From assembly GCA_027011045.1 (NCBI GenBank), contig JALVAT010000006.1, forward strand, positions 1-40,539: a stretch of DNA of 40,539 nucleotides, read 5' to 3'. The notes beneath the pieces are model-generated. The model was given only the letters and a program-made list of their open reading frames with translations, was not told the origin of the DNA and ran no database searches. Numbering within the stretch: position 1 is the stretch's first letter; every line of letters starts with the position of its first letter. The stretch is from Microcaldota archaeon (GTDB lineage: Archaea > Iainarchaeota > Iainarchaeia > JAADDC01). The translations under genes were made by a program, and so were the position numbers. Below, piece by piece: positions 17,457 through 26,906 of the stretch.

Positions 17457-17550
17457 GGCGTGTAGTGCGGGGCGAGGCTCCGAACATGGGGCTCCCGCCC
17501 CTATTACCCCGTAGGGGGTGTCTCCGACACCCTGCTGTCAATTGTATAGT
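17457..17550. repeat. Copy 1 of 94/95-bp repeat flanking the 3' end of a tRNA-Leu gene
   Basis: Identical by eye to 26352-26446 except a one-G length difference; contains perfect hairpin GGGTGTC-TCC-GACACCC (17516-17532). Confidence 0.9.
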
Positions 17551-17633
17551 GCGGGGGCGGGGATTCGAACCCCGGAAGGCACTAAGCCAGCGGATCTTGA
17601 GTCCGCCCCCTTTGGCCGCTCGGGCACCCCCGC
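17551..17633 (-). tRNA. tRNA-Leu(CAA)
   Basis: Minus strand GCGGGGGTGCCCGAGCGGCCAAAGGGGGCGGACTCAAGATCCGC...GGGGTTCGAATCCCCGCCCCCGC; class II tRNA with variable arm; anticodon loop CTCAAGA. Confidence 0.93.
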
Positions 17634-17819
17634 AGCCGATCCTCGGCTGGCGCGGAGCTAACTGCCTGTCGCAGACAGGCAGTTATGCGCTTGTACGCGT
17701 GACTGAAGCCCCGCAACCGTATCCCGGTTGACGTGACCGTGCATGGGGCTTTCAGCCCCATACTCAACCGGATGTGTGGTCGGTTGCTTGCAACCGGCCT
17801 CGCGGACCCACTGTCCGCG
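17633..17819. repeat. Hairpin mosaic upstream (5' side) of tRNA-Leu(CAA)
   Basis: Serial inverted repeats: CAGCCGA-TCC-TCGGCTG 17633-17649; AACTGCCTGTC-GCA-GACAGGCAGTT 17660-17684; CAACCG/CGGTTG 17714-17730; ATGGGGCT-TTC-AGCCCCAT 17743-17761 inside CCGGTTGA/TCAACCGG 17724-17771; GGTCGGTTGC-TT-GCAACCGGCC 17778-17799; CGCGGAC/GTCCGCG 17801-17819. Confidence 0.88.
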
Positions 17820-17865
17820 TCGGCCCTGGGTTTACCTGCGCAGCGTAGTTAATTTTTCAGGGAAG

Positions 17866-17874
17866 TTTTATAAG
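17866..17874 (+). promoter_or_regulatory. Archaeal TATA box for the CPA2 antiporter gene (leaderless arrangement)
   Basis: ttttataag about 26 nt upstream of GTG 17896. Confidence 0.55.
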
Positions 17875-26066: not shown

Positions 26067-26095
26067 TTCCGCAGCCAACATCTAATGCCCTGTTC

Positions 26096-26146
26096 TGGGC
26101 CCGTAGGGCCCAAGCCCGTCTCCTGTGGCATCCCTGCCACGCTTGG
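26096..26146. repeat. Hairpins in the leader between candidate promoter and tRNA-Asn
   Basis: TGGGCCC-GTA-GGGCCCA 26096-26112; GTGGCA-TCCC-TGCCAC 26125-26140 inside CCAAGC/GCTTGG 26110-26146. Confidence 0.7.
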
Positions 26147-26155
26147 GGATTTTGG

Positions 26156-26228
26156 GCCCGGGTAGCTCAGTTGGTAGAGCGGCCGGCTGTTAACCGGCAG
26201 GTCCCAGGTTCGAGTCCTGGCCCGGGCG
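26156..26228 (+). tRNA. tRNA-Asn(GUU)
   Basis: GCCCGGGTAGCTCAGTTGGTAGAGCGGCCGGCTGTTAACCGGCAGGTCCCAGGTTCGAGTCCTGGCCCGGGCG; full cloverleaf. Confidence 0.97.
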
Positions 26229-26351
26229 CTTGACATTTTCTCCTTCTTCGTGTCCCCTGATTTCTTTTATTCTGACACAATGCCCGACAAGCGTGCCCGG
26301 CCCCCTCACCGCCTCTCTTGTATTCCTTAGAGAAGTTGACGTGGTAGTGGG

Positions 26352-26446
26352 GGCGTGTAGTGCGGGGGCGAGGCTCCGAACATGGGGCTCCCGCCCCTAT
26401 TACCCCGTAGGGGGTGTCTCCGACACCCTGCTGTCAATTGTATAGT
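26352..26446. repeat. Copy 2 of 94/95-bp repeat flanking the 3' end of a tRNA-Leu gene
   Basis: Matches 17457-17550 apart from one G; hairpin GGGTGTC-TCC-GACACCC at 26412-26428. Confidence 0.9.
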
Positions 26447-26529
26447 GCGGGGGCGGGGATTCGAACCCCGGAAGGCACTAAGCCACCGGATCCTAAGTCC
26501 GGCCCCTTTGGCCGCTCGGGCACCCCCGC
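26447..26529 (-). tRNA. tRNA-Leu(UAG)
   Basis: Minus strand GCGGGGGTGCCCGAGCGGCCAAAGGGGCCGGACTTAGGATCCGGTGGCTTAGTGCCTTCCGGGGTTCGAATCCCCGCCCCCGC; anticodon loop CTTAGGA. Confidence 0.93.
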
Positions 26530-26848
26530 AACCGTATCCCGGTTGACGTGACCGTGCATGGGGCTTGCAGCCCCATACCCAACCGGTTGTGCGTGCGGCC
26601 AAAGTGCCGCACCCGCCATCCCGGTTGACATCGCAAGCTTCGCTTGCGTGCACGCGAACGGAGTTCGCGATGCGTGACCGTACATGGGGCTTTCAGCCCC
26701 ATACTCAACCGGGTGTGCGTGCGGCTGAAGTGCCGCATCCGCGGCAGCGTCAACCGATGTAGCGGTTGCTCGGCTGACGCGGAGCTAACTGGGGATCTGC
26801 GATCCCCAATTATGCACCGGTTGTGTGGTCGGTTGCTTGCAACCGGCC
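26529..26848. repeat. Hairpin mosaic upstream (5' side) of tRNA-Leu(UAG)
   Basis: CAACCG/CGGTTG 26529-26545; ATGGGGCT-TGC-AGCCCCAT 26558-26576; GTGCGGC/GCCGCAC 26593-26612; CGCAAGC-TTC-GCTTGCG 26632-26648; CGCGAAC-GGA-GTTCGCG 26653-26669; ATGGGGCT-TTC-AGCCCCAT 26684-26702; TGCGGC/GCCGCA 26720-26737; CAACCG/CGGTTG 26751-26768; TGGGGATC-TGC-GATCCCCA 26790-26808; GGTCGGTTGC-TT-GCAACCGGCC 26827-26848. Confidence 0.88.
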
Positions 26849-26895
26849 TCGCGGACCCGCGGGCCGATGTGGCGGCCGCTCTGTTCACGGACCGC

Positions 26896-26906
26896 CTCTT
26901 TTATAT
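26896..26906. promoter_or_regulatory. Near-symmetric TATA element (cttttatatc) able to serve the HTH gene (+) and possibly the tRNA-Leu(UAG) precursor (-)
   Basis: About 26-28 nt before GTG 26930 on +; reads gatataaaag on - with predicted start near 26874, beyond the hairpin array. Confidence 0.45.

Follow-up and report, generated by a model that had tools for sequence, protein, structure and literature searches.

The DNA immediately 5′ of a tRNA-Leu(UAG) gene in the genome of an uncultured archaeon is packed with hairpins, raising the question of what this array is and how it came to abut a tRNA. The stretch analyzed (the window; 40,539 nucleotides) is contig C6 of a 744-kb genome that is 92% complete. 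Relatives of a protein encoded in the window came mostly from Candidatus Diapherotrites MAGs. A preliminary description of the window had suggested a long structured pre-tRNA leader, a new ncRNA, or a palindromic mobile repeat family. The hairpins with their short loops and the modules that recur were all confirmed as it described them. The array was real, with its far end at about position 26877 rather than 26848 and a length of 348 bp. The recurring unit ATGGGGCT-NNN-AGCCCCAT occurred twice in the array (26529-26586; 26622-26711, split by two extra hairpins) and again at 17722-17771. The exchange of AACT-GCCTGTC for AACT-GGGGATC within one frame was likewise found, at 17654-17689 and 26779-26816.

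The second array (17634-17826) lay immediately 5′ of tRNA-Leu(CAA), and both tRNA-Leu genes of the window were followed by a 3′ hairpin insert; neither the tRNA adjacency of the second array nor the 3′ inserts appeared in the preliminary description. The coordinates of all features are given in Table 1. The duplicated segment beyond the 3′ insert of tRNA-Leu(UAG) agreed with tRNA-Leu at most positions. A search of the window for decayed 5′ copies of tRNA-Leu gave nothing significant, the 3′ copies alone being recognizable; GCGGGG, at the outer edge of the inner insert of tRNA-Leu(CAA), is possibly a remnant of the tRNA 5′ end, 6 nt only. The window also contained a tRNA-Asn gene (26156-26229) with a hairpin-rich leader (26090-26155), GCCCGTAG at -57 and the nearest TATA-like box at -97/-99. 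This leader is probably a decayed element.

Table 1. Features of the two tRNA-Leu loci in the window.
Feature	Position	Strand	Evidence
tRNA-Leu(UAG), intact	26445..26529	-	ARAGORN; Rfam tRNA 55.8 bits
5′ hairpin array (compound insert) abutting tRNA +1	26530..26877	-	sequence, folding, module matches
Right-end module (inverted left module), outer end flush with tRNA +1	26529..26586	+	CM R1 37.0 bits, E 4.9e-6
Left-type module, head-to-head with right-end module (span 144)	26583..26672	-	CM R1 37.3 bits
Left-type module	26709..26767	-	CM R1 47.1 bits
Left-type module, outermost of array	26817..26877	-	CM R1 62.3 bits, E 4.1e-11
TATA-like box ATATAAAAG, just upstream of array	26898..26906	-	sequence; pattern across loci
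3′ hairpin insert after tRNA-Leu(UAG)	26382..26444	-	sequence
Duplicated tRNA-Leu T-loop-to-3′-end segment GTTCGGAGCCTCGCCCCCGCAC	26360..26381	-	alignment score 16, 0/1000 shuffles equal
tRNA-Leu(CAA), intact	17549..17633	-	ARAGORN
Inner 5′ insert of tRNA-Leu(CAA)	17634..17713	-	sequence
Complete head-to-head unit, 113 bp: modules 17714-17771 (+), 17768-17826 (-)	17714..17826	-	CM matches
TATA-like box TTATAAAA, upstream of tRNA-Leu(CAA) array	17866..17873	-	sequence
3′ hairpin insert after tRNA-Leu(CAA), near-identical to 26382-26444	17486..17548	-	sequence
Duplicated tRNA-Leu T-loop-to-3′-end segment	17465..17485	-	alignment score 13, 1/1000 shuffles equal

A DNA search of the same genome gave 45 matches spread over about 18 places, almost all of them beside tRNA genes. 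In total, 46 tRNA genes were located and their flanks read, the reading covering the stretches around tRNA genes and module matches. Arrays preceded tRNA genes for Leu (5), Val (3), Ala (3), Pro (3), Lys (2) and Glu (2), as well as Ile(gat), four of the five Arg tRNAs and one intron-containing tRNA; most remaining tRNAs had a short leader. The tRNA genes of this tiny genome were mostly single-copy, and more than half carried inserts.

A covariance model of the left module was built from 17 sequences of four species, in which 10 of 16 pairs were changed on both sides. Covariation was 0.353 compared with 0.139 after shuffling, and none of 500 shuffles reached the observed value. When the model was run over 87 genomes of the class, the four congeners had 19, 29, 16, and 34 copies, two sister-genus genomes had 8 and 4, and the other 81 had none; one genome without module matches, G004, is 68% complete. 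Altogether, 88 of the 98 copies in the four congeners lay within 600 nt of a tRNA gene, 82 of these 88 on the strand of the tRNA. These counts exclude a scatter of modules without tRNA association, the refuting condition named in the preliminary description. Among the ten copies away from tRNAs, at least three were tRNA loci truncated at contig ends. The inserts were gene-less and about 64-350 bp long.

Contig ends often fell within arrays or duplicated tRNA ends (contigs C11 and C4 of G002, C42 and C75 of G001, and C52 of G000). Contigs ending in this way indicate that the elements break assemblies, and tRNA genes are probably missed in annotation as a result.

In the basic unit, two inverted modules of about 58 bp stand head to head, about 113 bp in all. 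Thirteen such pairs were found, with spans of 109-161 bp, mostly 109-126 bp, and these pairs supply the terminal inverted repeats expected of a MITE. Of the 21 opposite-strand modules on the 5′ side of a tRNA, 12 had their outer end 0-1 nt from tRNA +1; both arrays of the window contain such an inverted module. Several simple inserts had a left module and no clearly recognizable right module. Longer arrays are compound.

Comparison of tRNA flanks in the four congeners revealed filled and empty versions of orthologous tRNA loci, with the promoter side conserved, in 12 anticodon families. At Val(cac), CTCGTAGTTTTTTAATT was kept in all four species; it was followed by about 190 nt of hairpins in G000, about 70 nt in G003, and none in G001 and G002. 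These differences between species show that the array is no ancestral leader. Across five genomes, the nearest TATA-like box lay at a median of -198 from tRNAs with an array and -39 from those without, placing the arrays between the putative promoter and the tRNA. For tRNA-Leu(UAG), the TATA-like box upstream of the array predicts a transcription start near 26875.

The outer edges of the inserts carried copies of tRNA ends. At 11 loci of G002, the insert had on its outer edge an exact 12-20 nt copy of the tRNA's own 5′ end, just at the point where the tRNA starts in the empty relative. Each copy matched the tRNA of its locus (Gly, Asn, Thr, Ile, Arg, Pro, Leu), for example GCGCCGGTAGTCTAG at Gly, GCCCGGGTAGCTCAG at Asn, GCGGGGGTGCCCGA at Leu and GGGGCCGTGGTGTAGCC at Pro. 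Since each copy belongs to its own tRNA, each insertion was a separate event. Over G001-G003, 19 of 115 loci had their own 5′ copy of at least 12 nt, compared with 22 of 4010 foreign pairings (P 1.6e-22, an indicative value because the loci are not fully independent). On the 3′ side, 12 of 124 loci in G000-G002 had their own copy, compared with 27 of 4778 foreign pairings (P 9e-12); this copy spanned the T-loop to the tRNA 3′ end, usually with a further 0-6 nt. At tRNA-Ser(cga) of G000 (L069, contig C26), a 22-nt tRNA-Ser 3′ fragment, GGTTCGAATCCCAGCCCCGGCG, and a 13-nt trailer were repeated downstream, with the insert between the tRNA and the repeated fragment.

In fresh-looking inserts, duplication of the first 12-20 nt of the tRNA upstream indicates entry into the D-arm, with an intact tRNA rebuilt downstream. 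At older loci the outer copy decays, as at Ala(tgc), where GAGCCCG or TGTCCCG stands for GGGCCCG; such decay points to the inner, contiguous tRNA as the functional copy.

Two insertions were found outside tRNA genes. At G000:C40, an insert of about 110 bp ending in GGCCAGAGAATCTGGCC lay between exact 20-bp direct repeats, AAGCCGCCAAGCTGACCACA, so that target-site duplications, as in MITEs, were present both at tRNA loci and here. At G003:C98, an array at the 3′ end of an ORF lay between 24-nt repeats that were 79% identical. Direct repeats outside tRNAs make the long duplication a property of the insertion itself. Transfer RNA genes are the preferred target, or else the sole targets that tolerate a long duplication well.

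Taken with the dispersed copies, the relatives' empty sites and the inverted terminal modules, the duplicated target ends strongly support the mobile repeat family suggested in the preliminary description. Most probably it is a gene-less, palindromic, MITE-like insertion family that targets the elbows of tRNA genes and makes long target duplications that spare the tRNA. The proposed mechanism is DNA-level transposition by a trans-acting enzyme, with a stagger of 12-25 nt and an insertion point in the tRNA D-arm (nt ~14-20) or T-loop (nt ~54). At tRNA genes, the stagger would run from the D-arm or T-loop to the tRNA terminus, so the 12-25 bp of copied target would be the short severed tRNA end. 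An intact tRNA would be restored on one side, and the dead copy on the other would decay. The element would come to lie between promoter and tRNA, in the 5′ leader, or else in the 3′ trailer, and the product would retain promoter, leader and intact tRNA. The array would then be transcribed and removed by processing: RNase P, the RNA of which was present, would cut the junction of insert and tRNA, and 3′ processing would remove trailer inserts.

A bolder version of this reading, which we regard as possible and rather doubtful, is that these are mobile elements of a new class, which recognize the shape of tRNA and act through an enzyme or through host nucleases on a tRNA cruciform. One strand would be cut at the D-loop or T-loop, the opposite strand at the end of the tRNA. 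Each insertion would then automatically regenerate the tRNA and hide in RNA discarded by RNase P.

The preliminary description had also offered a long structured pre-tRNA leader as a possibility and had seen signs of selection on structure. The location suits a leader, a TATA-like box lying upstream of the array. As a functional leader or new ncRNA, the array would be a selected RNA structure that controls tRNA maturation or releases small RNAs. The strong covariation of the left module would agree with this, as would the better folding of the transcribed strand in the window (positions 26530-26880: z = -9.7 for the strand of the tRNA, z = -6.0 for the opposite strand; 0 of 100 shuffles equally stable). 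However, covariation is insufficient to show RNA-level selection, because inverted elements keep their pairing at the DNA level too. No consistent G.U excess was found on the transcribed strand: stems with one mismatch had 46 G.U and 30 A.C on the 5′ side, compared with 30 and 34 on the 3′ side. Conserved function is further contradicted by orthologous tRNAs in the genus that lack arrays, by G004, which has no module match, and by the occurrence of the same modules on the 3′ side of tRNAs and at two sites outside tRNA genes. In a Rfam scan, tRNA and SRP RNA alone exceeded threshold, the array staying below that of every family. A selected leader or ncRNA is accordingly an unlikely account of the array, though the hairpin inserts may have an RNA function.

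Scarcely more probable is an origin in replication or repair, in which forks stall at tRNA genes and template switching adds palindromic filler and re-copies the tRNA end. The mosaic arrays, the negative transposase searches and the match of the duplicated ends to structural boundaries of the tRNA would all fit. Against it stand homologous inserts with defined inverted modules in four species and a sister genus, and the family member outside tRNA genes with its 20-bp direct repeat. Remnants of plasmids or viruses integrated by a tyrosine integrase are very improbable. Transfer RNA genes are the classical target of such elements, and in Caldiarchaeum a tRNA-Thr 5′ fragment remains upstream of a 1.8-kb insert (PMC3293823). 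Yet the inserts described here are short, gene-less and alike, each flanked by the end of its own tRNA, which speaks against one attachment site; no common attachment core was found, and integrase was absent from G000, G002, and G003. Plasmid and phage sequences gave no match. Viral contigs gave no match to the left-module pattern and 24 matches to the 16-base right-end pattern, the best module score of which (E 0.014) was taken as chance.

A tRNA intron was also considered and rejected: an intact, contiguous tRNA follows the insert, and the upstream partial copies decay (Ala(tgc) in G001 and G003). No bulge-helix-bulge splicing signals were seen when the main unit was inspected by eye.

The search for a mobilizing enzyme covered the reverse transcriptase, tyrosine integrase, rve, Y1, and Cas1 families. 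In G000, G002, and G003 (87-92% complete), no match was found to reverse transcriptase, tyrosine integrase, rve transposase or Cas1, and Y1 transposase was found in none of six family genomes. Searches with the right-end pattern and the modules revealed no autonomous transposon sharing the ends. Two open frames of G001 (1607 and 1876 aa; contigs C1 and C8; L262, L263, L301, L302) each contained RVT_1 and rve, a combination resembling eukaryotic LTR retrotransposons; they are likely MAG contamination.

Palindromic units in mosaics are known from REP/BIME elements with RAYT (Y1) transposases. Those elements are generally intergenic and the present family is tRNA-linked; membership was rejected on the absence of Y1. 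Prokaryotic MITEs share with the family short, gene-less, multi-copy sequences with inverted terminal sequences and flanking direct repeats (PMC10969869), a copy number of 16-34 modules per genome being seen in the four congeners. The family differs from MITEs in targeting the tRNA D-arm and T-loop near-exclusively, in 12-25 bp duplications that rebuild the tRNA, and in that no autonomous partner was found; tRNA is not mentioned in the text of the MITE review (PMC10969869).

Casposons have target-site duplications of similar length (1-27 nt, median 15), and some have terminal repeats with palindromic sequences (PMC4046053). Some also insert at tRNA 3′ ends, five euryarchaeal casposons overlapping the last 4-7 nt of tRNA genes (PMC4046053). 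In contrast, casposons encode Cas1 and PolB, whereas the present inserts are gene-less and their targets include the D-arm. A casposon was rejected on the lack of Cas1 in G000, G002, and G003; in G001, Cas1 adjoins a Cas2-like gene, the arrangement of an ordinary CRISPR locus.

Of the published cases found, the nearest is the Caldiarchaeum tRNA-Thr disruption, where a mobile element leaves the 5′ fragment upstream and a complete tRNA gene downstream (PMC3293823). That case concerns one tRNA, a 1.8-kb recombinase-encoding element and tRNA intron gain, whereas dozens of loci and short palindromes are involved here. IS1202-family elements show targeted insertion, and one subgroup has duplications longer than 15 bp (PMC10132070); the members studied are 1.5 kb, transposase-coding and near dif sites, and no rve-type transposase was found in G000, G002, and G003. 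Mitochondrial repetitive hairpin-forming elements and GC clusters are small mobile hairpin families in the non-coding DNA of small genomes and are similar in form, with no tRNA-restoring duplication noted in the portion of the source consulted (PMC2800124). The family and its insertion geometry were not found described in the literature covered, which leaves out most subscription journals.

The insertion geometry would explain how a parasite can saturate essential tRNA genes without breaking them, and the loci provide sequence-level examples of tRNA genes cut at the D-arm and T-loop and then rebuilt. It bears directly on the fragmentation and splitting of archaeal tRNA genes and on how they acquire long leaders, and suggests that DPANN archaea harbor an unknown transposition enzyme.

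Additionally, a comparison of the G002 Arg and Pro loci with the Ala, Thr and Ile loci (L184-L208) showed a correlation between the first hairpin of each insert and the D-arm sequence of the target: CACCGAGTGCTTCGGTG followed GTAGCC, GGGCCGACG followed TAGCTCAG, and CAGCCGG or CGGCCG followed GTGCCCGA. This correlation possibly reflects target-specific subfamilies.
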